IMG/VR virus record: IMGVR_UViG_3300014306_000018
Span: 1 to 20,321 of that record
Direction: 5' to 3' (one strand)
DNA length: 20,321 nt
Origin: a virus
In this document: one piece after another, positions 2,244-16,060 of the stretch
Position numbering within the stretch: position 1 is the stretch's first letter
Layout of the letters: the number at the start of each line of letters is the position of its first letter
Made by a program: the position numbers and the translations under genes
Notes under the pieces: model-generated
Databases searched by the model: none
What the model was told of the DNA's origin: nothing
Seen by the model: only the letters and a program-made list of their open reading frames with translations

Positions 2244-2474
2244 GTGCGTGATGGGCGTTCATTACGTCCCTTTTGCGGGTGGATCTACGTAGACGGGGTC
2301 AAGCACAAGTGTGTCGCCCTCAAGTTCGTCGAGCATGAGCATGGCAAGCAGCAGGACGACGACATGTACTTCGTCACCTGTCATGGCGCATGCGTAGAGT
2401 GCGATACGGTCGTATCGCTGCACTGGCCAAGCCCTGAAGACATCGAGGACTGCCTGGTTGAGCATCATCAGTGA
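2244..2474 (+). CDS. Hypothetical Cys-containing protein, probably made by -1 frameshifting from ATG 2251
   Basis: The long open frame has no good start. GTG 2244 lies inside the AAAGGAGG Shine-Dalgarno (2237-2244), and the next in-frame start is far inside. That Shine-Dalgarno is instead perfectly placed (6 nt) for ATG 2251 in another frame, which would stop after 13 residues (MGVHYVPFAGGST). In that frame a CCCTTTT slippery heptamer at 2268-2274 allows a -1 shift into the long frame, giving a coherent 74-residue protein starting MGVHYVPFCGWIYVDG. The product has several Cys residues (CHGACVEC) that might bind metal. A sequencing indel in the T run would give the same picture. It overlaps the sulfotransferase gene by 17 nt. 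Confidence 0.6.
   Translation: MRDGRSLRPFCGWIYVDGVKHKCVALKFVEHEHGKQQDDDMYFVTCHGACVECDTVVSLHWPSPEDIEDCLVEHHQ
2268..2274 (+). promoter_or_regulatory. Candidate -1 ribosomal frameshift site (CCCTTTT)
   Basis: The heptamer reads C CCT TTT in the frame of ATG 2251, the X XXY YYZ form of a -1 slippery site. After the shift the codons read CCC TTT TGC and continue to the stop at 2472-2474. The zero-frame stop is at 2290-2292. A perfect 10-bp palindrome (TCTACGTAGA, 2284-2293) lies just downstream, but no strong stimulatory stem-loop or pseudoknot is obvious. Confidence 0.45.
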
Positions 2475-3084
2475 CTCGAAGAAGTTCGCCTTCATCCACA
2501 TCCCGAAGAACGCCGGACATTCGGTCACATGGTGGCTACAGCCAAGGCTCGATGAGGGAGACATGGCCAGGCTCGAGTGGGAGACGCCAGACCCGATGGT
2601 CGGCTGGGGGCTGGAAAAGCACTCGCCGGCCATCGACTACATGGCGTGGATGGAAGCGACCGGTCGGGACTGGGACTCCTACAAGACCTTCGTCATCACG
2701 AGGCATCCAGAAGAGCGCGCCGTCGCCATCTACTGGGAGACGTGGCGCAACCGGCACAACCGAGATGATTGGTATTGGAGCCGAGCCGGTCGACGGTGGT
2801 GGATCGAGTTCGACAAGGCGGATGGGCCAGACGAGTTCATCGCCGCAGGGTTGCTTGATCCAGACAATCCGCTGAACATCCTCAAGACGCAGGAGTGGTT
2901 CAGCGTCGGCGTGTCGACCTATGTGCCCATCAGCGGCTTCGCTGACTTCCTCCCAGAGTGGCTTGGCGTCGAGGGCAGGCCGCACATCGCCCACGCCGGG
3001 AACTACCCGCAGGCCGAACTGTCCGAACGCTCGCGGGAGTACGTCGCCATGGCGTATGCCCCGGACTACGACTTCCCCTTCTAA
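2458..3084 (+). CDS. Sulfotransferase-family protein, 208 aa
   Basis: Likely transfers sulfate from PAPS to an acceptor. Near the N-terminus, FIHIPKNAGHS (residues 12-22) matches the 5'-phosphosulfate-binding loop of carbohydrate-type sulfotransferases (HIPKxAGxS). At residues 76-93, KTFVITRHPEERAVAIYW matches the 3'-phosphate-binding element (xxRxPxxRxxSxY), with Ala in place of the usual Ser. At 208 residues it is short for the family. No signal peptide or membrane anchor is seen, so it should act in the cytoplasm. The start is TTG 2458 with GAGGA 8 nt upstream, overlapping the preceding gene by 17 nt. It ends the rightward run. Acceptor unknown; a glycan made by the sugar genes at 13-17 kb is a speculative candidate. 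Confidence 0.75.
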   Translation: MSIISDSKKFAFIHIPKNAGHSVTWWLQPRLDEGDMARLEWETPDPMVGWGLEKHSPAIDYMAWMEATGRDWDSYKTFVITRHPEERAVAIYWETWRNRHNRDDWYWSRAGRRWWIEFDKADGPDEFIAAGLLDPDNPLNILKTQEWFSVGVSTYVPISGFADFLPEWLGVEGRPHIAHAGNYPQAELSERSREYVAMAYAPDYDFPF

Positions 3085-3247: not shown

Positions 3248-3321
3248 TGGCAAGCCCACTAGGATTCGAACCTAGATCTTCCGGGTTGGAGCCGGAAATC
3301 CTACCGTTGAACGACGGACTC
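3248..3321 (-). tRNA. tRNA-Trp(CCA)
   Basis: Cloverleaf read on the minus strand: acceptor GAGTCCG with TGGGCTT (all pairs, three G-U), discriminator G, encoded CCA. Anticodon stem TCCGG/CCGGA, loop CTCCAAC, anticodon CCA. T-loop TTCGAAT. Last gene of the array transcript. Confidence 0.9.
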
Positions 3322-3323
3322 AC

Positions 3324-3398
3324 TGGTACCCTCGAGAGGATTCGAACCTCCACCCGAACGCTTAGGGGGCGCTTGCTCGTCCATTGAGCTTCGAGGGT
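3324..3398 (-). tRNA. tRNA-Arg(CCT)
   Basis: Acceptor ACCCTCG/CGAGGGT, D-stem GCTC/GAGC, anticodon stem AGCGC/GCGTT, loop CCCCTAA, anticodon CCT reading AGG, encoded CCA. Odd point: position 33 is C rather than the nearly universal U. Confidence 0.85.
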
Positions 3399-3399
3399 A

Positions 3400-3485
3400 T
3401 GGCGGAGCCTGCACGGACTCGAACCTGCACGGGTGTTACCCCTTCACTGTTTTCAAGACAGCTAACCGCACCTATGGGAGGCTCC
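3400..3485 (-). tRNA. tRNA-Ser(TGA)
   Basis: Acceptor GGAGCCT/AGGCTCC, discriminator G, CCA. Anticodon loop CTTGAAA with TGA. A long variable arm (AAGGGGTAACACCC) marks it as class II, as expected for Ser. Confidence 0.9.
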
Positions 3486-3489
3486 GTAT

Positions 3490-3565
3490 TGGCACCCCTA
3501 CGGGGATTCGAACCCCGGTCGCCAGGCTGAGAACCTGGCATCCTAGACCACTAGACGATAGGGAC
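3490..3565 (-). tRNA. tRNA-Glu(CTC)
   Basis: Anticodon stem CCAGG/CCTGG, loop TTCTCAG, anticodon CTC; T-loop TTCGAAT; acceptor GTCCCTA/TAGGGGT, discriminator G, CCA. D-arm is typical of tRNA-Glu. Confidence 0.92.
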
Positions 3566-3567
3566 AC

Positions 3568-3641
3568 TGGCGGTGCTGAAGGGGATCGAACCCTCTCCAA
3601 CTGTTAGACAGACAGACGTGCGGCCACTACACCACAGCACC
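3568..3641 (-). tRNA. tRNA-Asp(GTC)
   Basis: Acceptor starts GGTGCTG and the 3' end is CAGCACCG-CCA. Anticodon loop CTGTCTA, anticodon GTC. The outermost anticodon-stem pair (27-43) is a T-T mismatch. T-loop TTCGATC. Confidence 0.88.
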
Positions 3642-3642
3642 G

Positions 3643-3730
3643 TGGCGGAAGGACAAGGGATCGAACCTTGGCAGGCTTTCACCTGACTGCCGGTTAGCAA
3701 CCGGGTGCCTTACCTCTCGGCCAGCCTTCC
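3643..3730 (-). tRNA. tRNA-Ser(GCT)
   Basis: Anticodon loop TTGCTAA, anticodon GCT. Long variable arm with a GCAGGC-type stem confirms class II. Acceptor GGAAGGC/TCCTTCC (last pair mismatched), discriminator G, CCA. Confidence 0.9.
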
Positions 3731-3737
3731 GCGTATG

Positions 3738-3814
3738 TGGTAGCCCTCCCCGGATTCGAACCGGGATCCTTCCCGTCTTGAGCGGGACGCCTCTGCCAGT
3801 TGGGCTAGAGGGCT
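3738..3814 (-). tRNA. tRNA-Leu(CAA) on a class I body
   Basis: Anticodon stem TCCCG/CGGGA, loop CTCAAGA, anticodon CAA reading TTG. Acceptor AGCCCTC/GAGGGCT, discriminator A, CCA. The variable loop is only AGGAT (5 nt), although bacterial tRNA-Leu normally has a long variable arm. The assignment rests on the anticodon; see findings. Confidence 0.82.
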
Positions 3815-3815
3815 T

Positions 3816-3890
3816 TGGTGCCGCCAGTCCGATTTGCACGGACACTGACCGGGCTTCAACCGGGCGTGCTACTGCTGACACTACAGCGGC
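3816..3890 (-). tRNA. tRNA-Phe(GAA)
   Basis: Acceptor GCCGCTG/TGGCGGC, discriminator A, CCA. Anticodon loop TTGAAGC, anticodon GAA. The T-loop is TGCAAAT, so position 55 is G instead of the usual T (pseudouridine). Confidence 0.88.
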
Positions 3891-3892
3891 GT

Positions 3893-3969
3893 TGGTGGGG
3901 CAAGTGAGATTCGAACTCACACTGGGCGGATTCTGACTCCGCTTCCTCTACCAGTTGGGATACAGCCCC
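3893..3969 (-). tRNA. tRNA-Leu(CAG) on a class I body
   Basis: Anticodon stem GCGGA/TCCGC, loop GTCAGAA, anticodon CAG reading CTG. Acceptor GGGGCTG/TTGCCCC with one T-T mismatch, discriminator A, CCA. Short 5-nt variable loop, unusual for Leu. Confidence 0.82.
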
Positions 3970-3970
3970 T

Positions 3971-4046
3971 TGGGGTAATCGCTGGGACTCGAACCCAGTT
4001 ACCGGGAGTCACAATCCCGTGCCGCAACCCGTTTGGCTTCGACCAC
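3971..4046 (-). tRNA. tRNA-His(GTG)
   Basis: Acceptor GTGGTCG/CGATTAC, with the His hallmarks discriminator C73 and a G at position -1 (4047). Anticodon loop TTGTGAC, anticodon GTG. Encoded CCA. Confidence 0.92.
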
Positions 4047-4048
4047 CA

Positions 4049-4119
4049 TGGAGCCCCTGCTAGGAGTCGAACCTAGACCATCTGCTTACAAGGCAGACGC
4101 TCTTCCCAAGAACGAGGGC
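4049..4119 (-). tRNA. tRNA-Thr(TGT) with shortened D-arm
   Basis: Acceptor GCCCTCG/CAGGGGC, discriminator T, CCA. Anticodon stem TCTGC/GCAGA, loop CTTGTAA, anticodon TGT. Only 15 nt separate the acceptor and anticodon stems (TTCTTGGGAAGAGCG), forming a TCTT/AAGA stem with a GGG triloop. Same design as tRNA-Thr(CGT) at 4277. Confidence 0.82.
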
Positions 4120-4120
4120 T

Positions 4121-4197
4121 TGGCACCGCGTGCCGGATTCGAACCGGCGTCGTCGGGATTGAAAGTCCCGCATCCTGGACCACTAGACGAACGCGAC
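4121..4197 (-). tRNA. tRNA-Glu(TTC)
   Basis: Anticodon stem CGGGA/TCCCG, loop CTTTCAA, anticodon TTC. Acceptor GTCGCGT/ACGCGGT, discriminator G, CCA. D-arm like that of the other Glu tRNA. Confidence 0.92.
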
Positions 4198-4198
4198 T

Positions 4199-4275
4199 TG
4201 GTACTCCTGGGAGGACTCGAACCCCCGGCGCGCTGGGTGTAAACCAGCCGTTCTAGCCGCTGAAACTACAGGAGT
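4199..4275 (-). tRNA. tRNA-Val(TAC)
   Basis: Acceptor ACTCCTG/CAGGAGT, discriminator A, CCA. Anticodon stem GCTGG/CCAGC, loop TTTACAC, anticodon TAC. D-arm GTTTCAGCGGCTAGAAC is normal. Confidence 0.92.
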
Positions 4276-4276
4276 A

Positions 4277-4347
4277 TGGAGCTCCAGCAGGGAGTCGAAC
4301 CCTGAGATGCTGATTACGAAACAGCAGCCCGACCATCGGACAAGAGC
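4277..4347 (-). tRNA. tRNA-Thr(CGT) with shortened D-arm
   Basis: Acceptor GCTCTTG/CTGGAGC, discriminator T, CCA. Loop TTCGTAA, anticodon CGT; the innermost anticodon-stem pair is T-T. Only 15 nt lie between the acceptor and anticodon stems, forming CCGA/TCGG with a TGG triloop. Confidence 0.8.
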
Positions 4348-4348
4348 T

Positions 4349-4422
4349 TGGCTGGCACGCCTGGATTCGAACCAGGCCCGGATGGTTAACAGCCAACCGT
4401 GCTACCGCTACACCACACGCCA
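4349..4422 (-). tRNA. tRNA-Asn(GTT)
   Basis: Acceptor TGGCGTG/CGTGCCA, discriminator G, CCA. Anticodon loop CTGTTAA, anticodon GTT. One T-T mismatch in the anticodon stem (GTTGG/CCATC). T-loop TTCGAAT. Confidence 0.88.
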
Positions 4423-4429
4423 GTGCATT

Positions 4430-4514
4430 TGGTAGGTCCGGAGGGAGTCGAACCCTCAATCCGCATGGGCAACAGCCTCTCAGACTGCCGTGTATACCAT
4501 TCCACCACGGACCT
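4430..4514 (-). tRNA. tRNA-Leu(GAG)
   Basis: Acceptor AGGTCCG/CGGACCT, discriminator A, CCA. Anticodon loop CTGAGAG, anticodon GAG reading CTC. Long variable arm (TGCCCATGCGGAT), the normal class II form for Leu, in contrast with the two other Leu genes here. Confidence 0.9.
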
Positions 4515-4515
4515 A

Positions 4516-4591
4516 TGGTTGCAGCCGGGGGAGTCGAACCCCAAGAGGAGGGGTATGAACCCTCCGTGATCTCCGGACCATAACGACTGCG
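4516..4591 (-). tRNA. tRNA-Met(CAT), initiator-like
   Basis: Anticodon loop TTCATAC, anticodon CAT. Acceptor CGCAGTC/GGCTGCA pairs at six positions and leaves a C1-A72 mismatch, a hallmark of bacterial initiator tRNA. The anticodon stem GAGGG/CCCTC has the three consecutive G-C pairs also typical of initiators. Discriminator A, CCA. The D-arm fits the standard pattern poorly, so an elongator or Ile2 role is not fully excluded. Confidence 0.85.
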
Positions 4592-4592
4592 A

Positions 4593-4666
4593 TGGAGCCT
4601 CACCAGGGAGTCGAACCCTGCCTGCCTCAATACCAATGAGACGTGCTGCCGCAACACTTGAAAGGC
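4593..4666 (-). tRNA. tRNA-Thr(GGT)
   Basis: Acceptor GCCTTTC/GTGAGGC (one T-T mismatch), discriminator T, CCA. Anticodon stem TCTCA/TGAGG, loop TTGGTAT, anticodon GGT. The D-arm is of nearly normal length, unlike the other two Thr genes. Confidence 0.88.
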
Positions 4667-4668
4667 GT

Positions 4669-4744
4669 TGGTACTGCGACTGGGAATCGAACCCAGACCT
4701 CCACCTTGGCAAGGTGGCATCCTGGCCGTTGAGACGACCGCAGT
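4669..4744 (-). tRNA. tRNA-Gly(GCC)
   Basis: Acceptor ACTGCGG/TCGCAGT, discriminator A, CCA. Anticodon stem CCACC/GGTGG, loop TTGCCAA, anticodon GCC. Confidence 0.92.
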
Positions 4745-4745
4745 A

Positions 4746-4820
4746 TGGAGAGTCCGGTGGGACTTGAACCCACAACTGAGAGGGTAAGAACCTCCCGGTT
4801 TACCGTTAGCCTACGGACCC
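4746..4820 (-). tRNA. tRNA-Lys(CTT)
   Basis: Acceptor GGGTCCG/CGGACTC, discriminator T, CCA. Anticodon loop TTCTTAC, anticodon CTT reading AAG. T-loop TTCAAGT. Confidence 0.9.
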
Positions 4821-4821
4821 T

Positions 4822-4897
4822 TGGTAGGGAGAGTGAGAGTCGAACTCACGACTACGTGCTTCCAAGGCACGTCGGTTGGCCGCTACCGTACCTCCCT
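4822..4897 (-). tRNA. tRNA-Pro(TGG)
   Basis: Acceptor AGGGAGG/TCTCCCT, discriminator A, CCA. Anticodon stem CGTGC/GCACG, loop CTTGGAA, anticodon TGG. Confidence 0.92.
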
Positions 4898-4898
4898 A

Positions 4899-4974
4899 TG
4901 GCACCCACTGAGGGAATCGAACCCCCGTTCTCTTGGTTCGAAGCCAAGCGCCTTCTCCACTAGACCAAGTGGGT
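4899..4974 (-). tRNA. tRNA-Arg(TCG)
   Basis: Acceptor ACCCACT/AGTGGGT, fully paired, discriminator G, CCA. Anticodon stem CTTGG/CCAAG, loop CTTCGAA, anticodon TCG reading CGA. Confidence 0.92.
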
Positions 4975-4977
4975 GTG

Positions 4978-5051
4978 TGGAAGCCTCGGTGGGACTCGCA
5001 CCCACTTCAGCCGGGTTGCAGCCGGCACCTTCGACTCTTCAGATCGAGGCT
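4978..5051 (-). tRNA. tRNA-Cys(GCA)
   Basis: Acceptor AGCCTCG/CGAGGCT, discriminator T (a Cys identity base), CCA. Anticodon stem GCCGG/CCGGC, loop CTGCAAC, anticodon GCA. T-loop TGCGAGT has G at position 55, as in the Phe gene. Confidence 0.88.
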
Positions 5052-5052
5052 A

Positions 5053-5128
5053 TGGTGGACCCCCAGGGACTCGAACCCTGACCTTCCTGCTTGCAAGGCA
5101 AGTGTGCTTCCGTTACAACCAGAGGCCC
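5053..5128 (-). tRNA. tRNA-Ala(TGC)
   Basis: Anticodon loop CTTGCAA, anticodon TGC. Acceptor GGGCCTC/GGGGTCC, discriminator A, CCA. The base pair 3-70 is G-T (G3-U70), the universal Ala identity element. Confidence 0.93.
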
Positions 5129-5133
5129 AAGAT

Positions 5134-5157
5134 GTAACTCCACCAGTGGCGAGTTAC
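5134..5157. repeat. 7-bp hairpin in the only long spacer of the tRNA array
   Basis: GTAACTC (5134-5140) and GAGTTAC (5151-5157) form a perfect dyad with a 10-nt loop. It lies in the 34-nt spacer between tRNA-Gly(TCC) and tRNA-Ala(TGC), while other spacers are 1-7 nt. It may be a processing or attenuation element, or the scar of a lost gene. Confidence 0.45.
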
Positions 5158-5162
5158 GTATT

Positions 5163-5239
5163 TGGTACTCCGTGAGGGACTCGAACCCTCAACTTCTGCT
5201 TGGAAGGCAGACGTGTTAGCCGTTGGACACCAACGGAGT
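5163..5239 (-). tRNA. tRNA-Gly(TCC)
   Basis: Acceptor ACTCCGT/ACGGAGT, discriminator A, CCA. Anticodon stem TCTGC/GCAGA, loop CTTCCAA, anticodon TCC. Confidence 0.92.
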
Positions 5240-5240
5240 T

Positions 5241-5314
5241 TGGCACACCCCCAAGGATTCGAACCTCGATCTGATGGTTCAGAGCCACCTGTCCTGCCCT
5301 TGAACGAGGGGTGT
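5241..5314 (-). tRNA. tRNA-Gln(CTG)
   Basis: Acceptor ACACCCC/GGGGTGT, discriminator G, CCA. Anticodon stem GGTGG/CCATC, loop CTCTGAA, anticodon CTG reading CAG. Confidence 0.92.
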
Positions 5315-5315
5315 G

Positions 5316-5390
5316 TGGCACCTACGGAAGGAATCGAACCTTCATCTGCGGCTTCGCAGTCCGTCACTCTCTCCATTGAGCTACGTAGGT
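5316..5390 (-). tRNA. tRNA-Arg(GCG), weak anticodon stem
   Basis: Acceptor ACCTACG/CGTAGGT, discriminator G, CCA. D-stem GCTC/GAGT. Loop CTGCGAA, anticodon GCG reading CGC/CGT. The anticodon stem ACGGA/GCCGC has only three central pairs, with A-C and A-G mismatches at the ends. Bacteria normally read this box with ACG (inosine), so a GCG anticodon is odd. It may be a decaying gene. Confidence 0.75.
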
Positions 5391-5391
5391 A

Positions 5392-5476
5392 TGGTGGGTG
5401 CAGAGGGATTTGAACCCCCACAGCCGTTAGACCACTGGTTTACAGCCAGCTCCCCTGACCCATGAGGTCTACACCC
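5392..5476 (-). tRNA. tRNA-Tyr(GTA)
   Basis: Acceptor GGGTGTA/TGCACCC, discriminator A, CCA. Anticodon loop CTGTAAA, anticodon GTA. Long variable arm (TGGTCTAACGGCTG), as expected for bacterial Tyr. Confidence 0.92.
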
Positions 5477-5479
5477 ATC

Positions 5480-5556
5480 TGGTAGCCCACCTGAGAGTCG
5501 AACTCAGCGATACCACGTTATCAGCGTGGCCCCGTCAACCGGCTGGGTCGCGGGCT
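5480..5556 (-). tRNA. tRNA-Ile(GAT)
   Basis: Acceptor AGCCCGC/GTGGGCT, discriminator A, CCA. Anticodon stem CCACG/CGTGG, loop CTGATAA, anticodon GAT. First gene of the leftward tRNA transcript, about 100 nt from the candidate promoter at 5664-5672. Confidence 0.92.
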
Positions 5557-5579
5557 ATGTTTCTCAGCCCCGAATTGTA

Positions 5580-5615
5580 GGAGCCGGTCCCAAAGGAGTC
5601 AATGGAACCGGCTCC
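5580..5615. promoter_or_regulatory. Strong hairpin in the tRNA array leader region
   Basis: GGAGCCGGT (5580-5588) and ACCGGCTCC (5607-5615) form a perfect 9-bp stem. On the plus strand the loop carries AAAGGAG followed by an ATG at 5602 that opens a 21-codon frame (MEPAPAEEEEMNPVRELLVT, stop 5665-5667). On the minus strand the hairpin lies in the leader of the tRNA transcript. Either role (leader-peptide control, or a 5' processing element) is possible; neither is proven. Confidence 0.4.
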
Positions 5616-5652
5616 CGCAGAGGAGGAGGAGATGAACCCCGTAAGGGAACTT

Positions 5653-13094: not shown

Positions 13095-13763
13095 ATGTCA
13101 CTCATCGTTGTCACGCCATCGCGTGGTCGACCACAGAAGGCTCTAGAGTCGTACGAGAAGTTCTTGGAGTACAAGAGCCTCGAGGACACGAAGATGGTGT
13201 TCGTCGTAGACAAGGACGACGATACGTTCGACGAGTACGTCAAGACCATGGTCCCGATCGTCTCGTATGACCACTCAGGCGGTGGGATGGGGCCACCCAT
13301 GAACGCAGCCGCAGCCGACCTGGCTCCGATGTATGAAATCGTGGGGTTTCTCGGTGATGACCACCGATTTCGCACACGATATTTTGACGAGCAGATCGAG
13401 ACGGCACTCGCGGGTGGTGGGTTCGCCTATGGCAACGACCTCGCACGCAAGGACATCCCGACACAGGTCTTCATCACCAGCGACATCATCCAGGCCCTCG
13501 GCTACTTCTGCCTTCCGGGTGCATACCACCTGTACCTTGACAACACGTGGGCTGACCTTGGGAATGGCGCTGAGTGCCTCTACTACCTCCCCGACACCAT
13601 CATCGAGCATGCCCACGCGTTCTATGGCAAGGCGCAGATGGACGAGGGATACGAGCGCGTCAATCACCCGAGCATGTACCAGCATGACGCGCAGATCTAC
13701 CGCAAGTGGGTAGAGTCAGGTCAACGGGAACGAGACATCGAAACAGTGAGGAAGTGCCTCTAA
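13095..13763 (+). CDS. Glycosyltransferase-like protein (GT-A fold), 222 aa
   Basis: The N-terminus SLIVVTPSRGRPQKALES is the first strand and loop of a family 2-type glycosyltransferase. VGFLGDDHRFRTRYFDEQI (83-101) supplies a DxD-like acidic pair for a metal and nucleotide sugar. FAYGNDL and LPGAYHLYLDNTWADLG resemble later catalytic segments. No membrane segment, so a soluble cytoplasmic enzyme. First gene of the sugar cluster; no ribosome binding site, possibly leaderless. Its TAA overlaps the ATG of the methyltransferase (TAATG). Donor and acceptor unknown. Confidence 0.8.
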   Translation: MSLIVVTPSRGRPQKALESYEKFLEYKSLEDTKMVFVVDKDDDTFDEYVKTMVPIVSYDHSGGGMGPPMNAAAADLAPMYEIVGFLGDDHRFRTRYFDEQIETALAGGGFAYGNDLARKDIPTQVFITSDIIQALGYFCLPGAYHLYLDNTWADLGNGAECLYYLPDTIIEHAHAFYGKAQMDEGYERVNHPSMYQHDAQIYRKWVESGQRERDIETVRKCL

Positions 13764-14368
13764 TGGCGAAGATGACGGTAAGGCAGACCTTCGACGAGAT
13801 CTACCGAGAGAATAGGTGGAACGGGACAGACTCAAGGTCGAACGGCCCAGGCGGGACCGTATACGCGAGGAGGTTCGTCGCCCCAGCCATCGCTGACCTC
13901 GTCAGCAACCTTGGCGTCACGTCCGTGCTTGATGTCGGGTGTGGAGAGACATACTGGCAGCCGGAACTCCCCGGTTACATCGGGATCGACGTCAGCAGTG
14001 TCGCCATCGAGGCAGCGAAGGAGCGTCATCCAGACTGGGACATCCGCCTCTGGTCCCCGAATGATGAGCTGCCGGTCGCGGAGTTCGTCATCCTGCGGCA
14101 CGTCCTCCAGCACATGACTCCGAGTTCCGGAAAGACCCTCGTCGAGCGAATCAAGGACATGGGGGCTGCATATCTCGCGGCCACGACATACGACAACGGC
14201 GACAACGGGGCCGGGTTCGAGCGTCCGATCGTCGAGGGTGGTGGCTATTGGCCAGACCTTCGAGTCGAGCCATTCGGGCTGGGAGAGCCGTCCGTTTCCA
14301 TCGAGGACGCAGCCAACCCCAGGCCGAAGCAGATGGGTGGTCGACTGGGCGTGTGGACCTTGCTGTGA
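13763..14368 (+). CDS. Class I SAM-dependent methyltransferase, 201 aa
   Basis: Motif I VLDVGCGETYW (55-65) and the following GIDVSSVAIEAAK (74-86) form the S-adenosylmethionine site; FVILRHVLQHM (108-118) is the usual motif IV region. GAGFERPIVEGGGYWPDLRV near the end may be part of the acceptor site. Nothing points to DNA methylation (no DPPY/NPPY motif). Lying between a glycosyltransferase and a sugar epimerase, it may methylate a sugar or its carrier; this is inference from context. The ATG 13763 overlaps the upstream stop and has GAGGAAG 8 nt before it. Confidence 0.85.
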   Translation: MAKMTVRQTFDEIYRENRWNGTDSRSNGPGGTVYARRFVAPAIADLVSNLGVTSVLDVGCGETYWQPELPGYIGIDVSSVAIEAAKERHPDWDIRLWSPNDELPVAEFVILRHVLQHMTPSSGKTLVERIKDMGAAYLAATTYDNGDNGAGFERPIVEGGGYWPDLRVEPFGLGEPSVSIEDAANPRPKQMGGRLGVWTLL

Positions 14369-15279
14369 ACGTCCTTATCACCGGAGCCGCTGGGTTCCTC
14401 GGAAGGCACTTCACGAAGTTCCACATGGACAAGGGAGACAAGGTTCTAGCGGTCGATAACATGTCGAGTCCGTACGCCGTCTACGAGACGTGGGTCACGG
14501 AACTCGATGTCCGTGACCTCGTAGAGGAATACACCGCAGACGCGTTCGACCGCATCTACCACTTCGCGGCCCTCGTCGGTGGGCGAGAGAAGATCGAGAT
14601 GGACCCGCTCTTCAATGCGGACTCGCTCGAGCTCGACTCCATCTTCTTCAGGTGGTGCGCCGCAGACCCTCCGATGGGTCCGGTCGTCTATCCGTCGTCA
14701 TCGGCTGTCTACGGCGTCCGACACCAGGGCGTTGACGGTGAATCACTCGACGAGCATCTCTTTCACCCGTCTCAACTTCGCTGGGACTCCCCAGACGAGG
14801 TCTATGGGTTCGCGAAGATGGCGGGCGAGTTCTTGGCCATGAAGGCAGCGGGATACGGGGTGCACACACTGTGTATCCGTCCGTTCAGCGGCTACGGCGA
14901 AGACCAGAGCATGGAATACCCGTTCCCATCGATCGCACGACGCGTCAAGCGACGTGAGGACCCGTTGCTCATCTGGGGGCATGGCGAACAGGTCCGTGAC
15001 TTCGTCCATGTCGACGATATCGTCGGGGCGACCGATGCGAGGCTCAATGGGACGCTTCGCGGGTATGACTCGATGAATATCGGCACTGGTATCGGCACGA
15101 ACTTCCTCGACCTTGCGTCACAGATGGCATTCATCGCCGGATACGCCCCGAACATCGAAACGATGCCAGACAAGCCGATCGGCGTCCTTCACCGTGTCGC
15201 TGACGTGACCAACATGTTCGACTACTACATCCCACAGGTCACACTCGAGATGGGCATCAGGAGGGCCCTGGGTGAGTGA
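14365..15279 (+). CDS. NAD-dependent sugar epimerase/dehydratase (extended SDR), 304 aa
   Basis: Acts on nucleotide sugars. GAAGFLG (7-13) is the GxxGxxG dinucleotide-binding loop, AVDN (29-32) contacts the cofactor ribose, YPSSSAVYG (109-117) carries the catalytic Ser, and YGFAK (147-151) is the YxxxK pair. RPFSGYGEDQ is the usual substrate-binding segment. The length is normal for the family (around 310). GTG 14365 overlaps the methyltransferase stop. It probably makes the donor sugar for the neighbouring glycosyltransferases; the precise sugar cannot be told. Confidence 0.92.
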   Translation: MNVLITGAAGFLGRHFTKFHMDKGDKVLAVDNMSSPYAVYETWVTELDVRDLVEEYTADAFDRIYHFAALVGGREKIEMDPLFNADSLELDSIFFRWCAADPPMGPVVYPSSSAVYGVRHQGVDGESLDEHLFHPSQLRWDSPDEVYGFAKMAGEFLAMKAAGYGVHTLCIRPFSGYGEDQSMEYPFPSIARRVKRREDPLLIWGHGEQVRDFVHVDDIVGATDARLNGTLRGYDSMNIGTGIGTNFLDLASQMAFIAGYAPNIETMPDKPIGVLHRVADVTNMFDYYIPQVTLEMGIRRALGE

Positions 15280-16060
15280 AACGAGCGGCTTTTCGCTCCC
15301 TCTAGAGGACGCGATCGAACTCTCAGGGCTTCCGTACCCACCATATGAGCCGCATCGCGATATCACGTTCGCCATCGTCGTCTGGAATGATGCGGGCCGG
15401 CTGGATGCTCTCTTGCGTCATGTAAGGCCACACTTCGAGACGCTGGCCGTCGTCGTCCAGGAATCGCCGGATGACACGCTCCAAGTCGCCCGAAACTTGG
15501 CCGATATCGTCATGATCGACAACTGGCGTGGATATGGCGACAAGTCCTTCGGGCCGATCCTCCTTCCGCAGATCTCTACGCGATGGACCTTCAAGTGTGA
15601 TGCGGACGAGTGGCCCGACCAAGAGTTGCTCGATTCGCTCCATCTTGCGAGGTGGGATGCCCAGCGGAGGGGCATCAAGGGAGTGTGGGTGCGCTTCAGG
15701 TCGTGGATCGAGGACAACGAGTACGAAGAGCAGCACTCTCATCTTCGCCTCTTCGAAACAGAGGTCGGATGGCCAAGCACACTGCACTCGCGCCCACCGG
15801 TCGACAACGGCATCATCTGGACATCTGGCCACATCCACCACAGGCGTTCTCTTGACGAGATGATCCTCGACTACCTGAGTTACTACCGGGTGGGCAAGGG
15901 AAATGTCGGATGGGACGCCCACAACAAGTTGATGATGCGCTCCGCAACGAGTGGCGTTGCGAAGAGCAAGGGATGGTCGTACGTGAAGTCGTACGCATGG
16001 TGGCCAGATGTCTTGGCTATCGCGTACGATGGCGTGGACCCGGAGAACATGACCGGCTAG
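15272..16060 (+). CDS. Glycosyltransferase family 2-like protein, 262 aa
   Basis: After a 30-residue extension, ITFAIVVWNDAGRLDALLRH (31-50) gives the first strand and helix of a GT-A domain. FKCDADEWPDQELL (107-120) holds the DxD metal site (Asp110, Asp112). The WPSTLHSRPP segment is found in many GT2 enzymes that act on glycans. No membrane segment. GTG 15272 has AGGAGG about 7 nt upstream and overlaps the epimerase by 8 nt. The donor is likely the sugar made by that epimerase (inference). Confidence 0.85.
   Translation: MSETSGFSLPLEDAIELSGLPYPPYEPHRDITFAIVVWNDAGRLDALLRHVRPHFETLAVVVQESPDDTLQVARNLADIVMIDNWRGYGDKSFGPILLPQISTRWTFKCDADEWPDQELLDSLHLARWDAQRRGIKGVWVRFRSWIEDNEYEEQHSHLRLFETEVGWPSTLHSRPPVDNGIIWTSGHIHHRRSLDEMILDYLSYYRVGKGNVGWDAHNKLMMRSATSGVAKSKGWSYVKSYAWWPDVLAIAYDGVDPENMTG

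Follow-up and report, generated by a model that had tools for sequence, protein, structure and literature searches.

Within 20,321 nucleotides (nt) of viral DNA, positions 1 to 20,321 of the IMG/VR record IMGVR_UViG_3300014306_000018 (the window, meaning the whole stretch analyzed), 29 transfer RNA (tRNA) genes lie on the minus strand from 5556 to 3248, and their anticodons cover 20 amino acids. Computation showed that codon usage in the phage fits this array, and that the fit is strongest in the late genes. The array is likely to provide tRNAs for the translation of late phage genes, possibly under limiting host tRNAs. The reasons for which phages carry tRNAs have been debated for decades, and relatives with 0, 3, 4, 8 and 29 tRNAs provide a natural comparison. 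Such a comparison within a family of same-size genomes makes tRNA-supply ideas testable; codon matching was seen only in the 29-tRNA phage, mainly in late genes.

The array was read by a position-by-position cloverleaf parse, in which all 29 tRNAs show an acceptor region of 7 bp and have CCA encoded. It spans 2,309 bp at 12.6 tRNA/kb, with 96% of the span being tRNA. The first-pass annotation had listed these genes in the same order, with CCA encoded and all 20 amino acids covered. ARAGORN recovered 26 of the 29 with the same anticodons, and called no tRNA in 30 shuffled windows. The Rfam model RF00005 placed 23 array tRNAs above the gathering score in a full-library search and reported 26 in a single-record search. 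The three gained were Thr(GGT) and Cys, plus Thr(CGT) below the threshold; Cys and Thr(CGT) are additions to the ARAGORN set. Ile, Met and Ser(TGA) were not detected by RF00005 in the single-record search of the window. A tRNA array unit is defined by at least 20 tRNAs in one region at a density of at least 2 tRNA/kb (PMC5966550), and the locus exceeds both values, with 26 genes by ARAGORN alone, 29 by the parse, and 12.6 tRNA/kb. The full set of 20 isotypes is likewise present by anticodon, with 2 of the 29 genes being weak or manual calls, but the Met gene reads as an initiator. The 20 amino acids are 19 elongator isotypes and one initiator.

Besides a ParB-like protein, the window encodes the markers of a tailed phage (Caudoviricetes), namely the terminase large subunit (PHROG 38, E 7e-83) and the portal protein (PHROG 2662, E 2e-37). 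The whole window is matched at 99.87% identity by a 73,094-bp contig with the same array, which is also carried by a 23,571-bp contig. The uncultured phage to which the window belongs is 73 kb or longer. On the 73-kb contig the array borders the late operon and runs on the other strand, in early-gene orientation.

Codon usage and decoding capacity

Under standard wobble, the array leaves six codons unread (AAA, AUA, CAA, UUA, CUA and AGA), and AUG has no elongator. For each amino-acid box, the A-ending share was regressed over relatives on the GC content of third codon positions (GC3), and the residual of the array phage was taken. With GC3 corrected for, the six unread A-ending codons all fell short of expectation, and the eight readable ones all exceeded it. 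In a first run with 13 relatives, the observed split was the single most extreme among 3,003 possible. Using 29 relatives with 0-8 tRNAs, the statistic was -1.49 compared with a mean of 0.00 (standard deviation 0.31; z about -4.8), and the next lowest relative was at -0.70.

The unread codons occurred at 6.0 per 1000 in late genes and 18.0 per 1000 in early genes (odds ratio 3.0, p 2.4e-10), the two classes being set by strand and not by expression. Readable A-ending codons were equal between late and early genes. The late/early odds ratio in six relatives was 0.98-1.49. In late genes, AAA accounts for 2 of 425 Lys codons, and its share of Lys is 2% in the array phage versus 12% in G014, a tRNA-less relative that equals it in size and is close to it in GC3. 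Low AAA and AUA alone were rejected as a sign of adaptation; relatives have low values too, and only the contrast with readable codons stands out. Second in strength of codon skew is the relative L045, which showed no tRNA in the 17 kb covered.

Several points weigh against a supply role for the array. Genes were called by a simple script with a minimum length of 100 amino acids (aa). The same prediction carried over to C-ending codons failed: Ala, Val, Pro and Ser, whose boxes lack a G34 tRNA, showed no deficit of NNC, and the array-codon fit is therefore limited to A-ending codons. CAA (13% of Gln) and AUG are still used. Moreover, the six unread codons are those that are commonly rare in GC-rich genomes, and part of the pattern could therefore come from an unusual host.

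Of all codons on the 73-kb contig, the six unread ones account for 0.9% and AUG for 2.2%, and the late genes retain 298 internal AUG and 50 CAA codons. In a translation-autonomous set, each amino acid would have an elongator and no sense codon would lack a tRNA; the array falls short of this on both counts. Because its only Met gene is of the initiator type and six codons are unmatched, it is unable to replace the host tRNAs, and the earlier proposal that the phage could decode without them is not supported. Twenty isotypes by anticodon do not amount to independence from host tRNAs when the sole Met gene is an initiator. The codon test does support a weaker form of the proposal, in which late translation draws on the array.

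The Met gene (4516-4591, minus strand; identified by the parse and its minimum free energy (MFE) fold) starts at 4591, one base before the ARAGORN start. It has a C1xA72 mismatch, a GAGGG/CCCTC anticodon stem with three G:C pairs (29-31:39-41) and a G11:C24 pair whose position depends on our own numbering of the shortened D-arm. Its MFE structure is a cloverleaf that leaves C1 and A72 unpaired. A survey of bacterial tRNAs found a 1-72 mismatch in 98.6% of initiators (C1-A72 in 77.5% of these) and pairing in 99.5% of elongators, while 11:24 is A:U or rarely G:C in initiators and C:G marks elongators (PMC5143459). The 1-72 mismatch, the three G:C pairs and the purine 11:pyrimidine 24 combination of bacterial initiators are all present in the array gene, which is predicted to function as an initiator with a short and irregular D-arm. 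No elongator tRNA-Met was found anywhere in the 73-kb contig.

An initiator-type tRNA lies upstream of the terminase in three phages: this one, L012 and G015. The L012 fragment (terminase 77% identity) has a Met gene as its lone tRNA, mismatched at 1-72; in G015 (72 kb, terminase 69% identity), the Met gene has C1xA72. In the Met D-arm, three bases within 4569-4572 are different in the 73-kb strain; by our reading the stem is preserved, and one G-U pair becomes G-C. An initiator without an elongator fits either the securing of initiation or descent from a single ancestral tRNA.

Proposed role and competing explanations

Judging from its anatomy, the array would be transcribed from upstream of tRNA-Ile on the early-gene strand, probably into a single long precursor or a few of them. 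Cuts by host RNase P and short 3' trimming would release tRNAs with encoded CCA, and these may be charged by host synthetases, as the identity marks of Ala, His and Cys would allow. The charged tRNAs would then supply the decoding of late phage genes, with internal AUG and several A-ending codons still served by host tRNAs. Avoidance of the unread codons may reflect host tRNAs that are limiting or damaged late in infection, be it through cleavage, competition or a poor match to phage demand. A stronger version, in which late synthesis is switched to a phage tRNA pool with its own initiator and late genes have been recoded away from most codons that this pool leaves unread because host tRNAs become unavailable, is put forward only tentatively.

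The competing explanation that survives best is defense evasion, in which infection leads the host to cleave its own tRNAs and array tRNAs with changed loops resist. Changed anticodon loops in the arrays of mycobacteriophage C1 are predicted to resist host nucleases (PMC10264068), and retron and Septu defenses are countered by phage tRNAs (PMC11555353, PMC13096335). Several array loops are unusual (Met TTCATAC, C33 in Arg(CCT) and U37 in Asp). The codon AAA, nearly abandoned in late genes, needs tRNA-Lys(UUU), the PrrC target cited in PMC10264068. On the other hand, codon frequency in C1 phages is unlinked to tRNA presence (PMC10264068), unlike in the array phage, and the early proteins scanned included no tRNA ligase or repair protein. 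Defense evasion is plausible at somewhat under even chances; it could also be the cause behind the supply role, and the confidence given to the two overlaps.

Codon compensation alone, in which the phage uses host-rare codons and brings the tRNAs for them while the host tRNAs stay intact, would account for codon use that tracks the array. The use of AGG, the codon of the array Arg(CCT), is 12.1 per 1000 (2.8-13.7 in relatives). Compensation nevertheless leaves unexplained a near-complete set that includes tRNAs for common codons, as well as the depletion of codons readable by host tRNAs, and it is unlikely to be the whole explanation.

A still less probable alternative is that the host itself avoids the six codons and the array is passively retained. 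The rarity of these codons in GC-rich genomes and their sparseness in the relatives are in its favor, yet eight readable A-ending codons are enriched simultaneously, and the relatives show neither the split nor a strong late-gene gradient. A decaying or passenger array, gathered by recombination and of little function, might be suspected from the irregular Ser(TGA), the short D-arms of two Thr genes and a 34-nt hairpin that may be a tRNA remnant, but is very improbable given 27-28 genes with near-perfect stems and intact anticodons and CCA, strain differences that spare the stems, and codon use that fits the array.

Array anatomy, flanks and relatives

The supply role favored here rests on the following genes, all on the minus strand and given in transcript order; each was found by ARAGORN, Rfam and the parse unless stated otherwise. 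The first is tRNA-Ile(GAT) (5480-5556; ARAGORN and parse, missed by Rfam), followed by Tyr(GTA) with a long variable arm of 14 nt (5392-5476), Arg(GCG) (5316-5390), Gln(CTG) with G73 (5241-5314) and Gly(TCC) (5163-5239). A 34-nt hairpin spacer (GTAACTC...GAGTTAC; 5129-5162, minus strand) with a stable fold (z -3.0) comes next; it may be what is left of a deleted tRNA, an acceptor stem that has lost its middle. Beyond it lie Ala(TGC) with the G3-U70 identity pair (5053-5128), Cys(GCA) with U73 (4978-5051; Rfam, 34.3 bits, and parse, missed by ARAGORN), Arg(TCG) (4899-4974), Pro(TGG) (4822-4897), Lys(CTT), for which AAG is the only codon (4746-4820), Gly(GCC) (4669-4744) and Thr(GGT) (4593-4666; Rfam in the single-record search).

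After the initiator-type Met(CAT) come Leu(GAG) with a long variable arm (4430-4514), Asn(GTT) (4349-4422), Thr(CGT) with a short D-arm (4277-4347; Rfam at 24.4 bits, below the cut-off, and parse, missed by ARAGORN), Val(TAC) (4199-4275), Glu(TTC) (4121-4197), Thr(TGT) with a short D-arm (4049-4119), His(GTG) with G-1:C73 (3971-4047), Leu(CAG) with a short variable loop of 5 nt (3893-3969), Phe(GAA) (3816-3890) and Leu(CAA), also with a 5-nt variable loop (3738-3814). The array ends with Ser(GCT) (3643-3730), Asp(GTC) with U37 in place of a purine (3568-3641), Glu(CTC) (3490-3565), Ser(TGA) (3400-3485), Arg(CCT) with C33 in place of U33 (3324-3398) and Trp(CCA) (3248-3321). Apart from the 34-nt hairpin and two spacers of 7 nt, the spacers are 1-4 nt.

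Ser(TGA) is a doubtful, weak member of the array. It has a perfect acceptor stem and CCA, but the T-stem contains a bulged A and the MFE fold is not a cloverleaf; neither ARAGORN nor Rfam called it, and its assignment comes from the manual parse. The 5-nt variable loops of Leu(CAA) and Leu(CAG) stand where bacterial Leu usually has a long arm. They were rejected as a sign of recoding, similar tRNA-Leu genes being found in Microbacterium and Felixounavirus-like phages. An intron-bearing Leu called by ARAGORN in the 73-kb contig was treated as spurious. Five array positions differ between strains, with anticodons unchanged and no pair broken by our reading; four differences separate the window from the 73-kb strain, three of them those in the Met D-arm.

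Just upstream of tRNA-Ile, a sigma-70-like site (TTGACT-17-TACAAT; 5602-5574, minus strand) overlaps a strong hairpin. It is a candidate array promoter, though statistically weak, as two promoter-like sites were found versus 1.1 expected by chance. Strong hairpins lie directly 5' of tRNA genes both here (window 5579-5618) and in L012 (about 377-415), and their sequences are unrelated. Similar TTGACAC...CGTGTT elements flank the array on the minus strand at about 5682 and 3194, and a like element precedes the single tRNA-Met of L012. These flanking TTGACAC repeats were rejected as a phage-wide operator because they are not enriched.

Among relatives of similar size, tRNA counts were 0 in G014 (73 kb) and G016 (69 kb), 3 in G018, 4 in G017 and 8 in G015. 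The 29-gene array appears to be a lineage-specific expansion near the site where relatives keep a few tRNAs, including the initiator. No relatives of the neighboring 208-aa gene (window 2458-3081) were found outside the array phage, and the array edge beside it is undatable for this reason. A near-identity search of annotated phages gave no matches, and a host search via genome contigs gave one 30% match in an archaeal metagenome-assembled genome, which was uninformative. Elsewhere in the window, genes for a glycosyltransferase, a methyltransferase and a nucleotide-sugar epimerase lie amid structural genes (13095-16060). An early gene of the 73-kb contig (L053, 9839-10855) has an amidoligase domain (PF12224).

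Comparison with known tRNA arrays

Phage tRNA arrays and full isotype sets are already known (PMC6409571, PMC5966550, PMC9964418). In the survey of Morgado and Vicente, 228 genomes of 72-617 kb had 15-37 clustered tRNAs, and eight of these virus tRNA clusters had 20 isotypes (PMC6409571). Cyanophages S-CRM01 and S-CBWM1 also have a full isotype set (PMC9964418), as does the phage studied here. Full sets are thus confined to a minority of phages, as the first-pass annotation had held. The clusters in the survey have about 2-10 tRNA/kb (PMC6409571), lower than the 12.6/kb found here. S-CREM1, which is related to the two cyanophages, has 178 kb and 39.7% GC, compared with 73 kb and 59% GC for the present contig.

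Mycobacteriophage array units (clusters C, M and V; for example Rizal, with 36 tRNAs) are likewise large, near-complete arrays in tailed phages. They are reported to hold 21-29 tRNAs (PMC5966550), mostly over 4.4-7.3 kb at about 4-6 tRNA/kb, compared with 12.6/kb in the array described here. A match between codons and tRNAs is absent in mycobacteriophage C1 (PMC10264068), whereas it is strong here. Shigella phage Sf14 has 26 tRNAs and, as here, a codon usage that differs in the late genes. Its tRNAs serve 19 amino acids and include two for Met, neither of them an initiator (PMC12482277), in contrast to the 20 isotypes and initiator Met of the present array. Microbacterium phage Magritte (OR553905) also has over 25 tRNAs. 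Lys(CTT) and Gln(CTG) are among them, as is a short tRNA-Leu resembling that of the array (84% identity). The Magritte tRNAs are scattered across about 8 kb with intervening genes, while the array here is tightly packed. What distinguishes the present array is its unusual density, the modest genome that carries it, an initiator as the sole Met gene, and codon matching.

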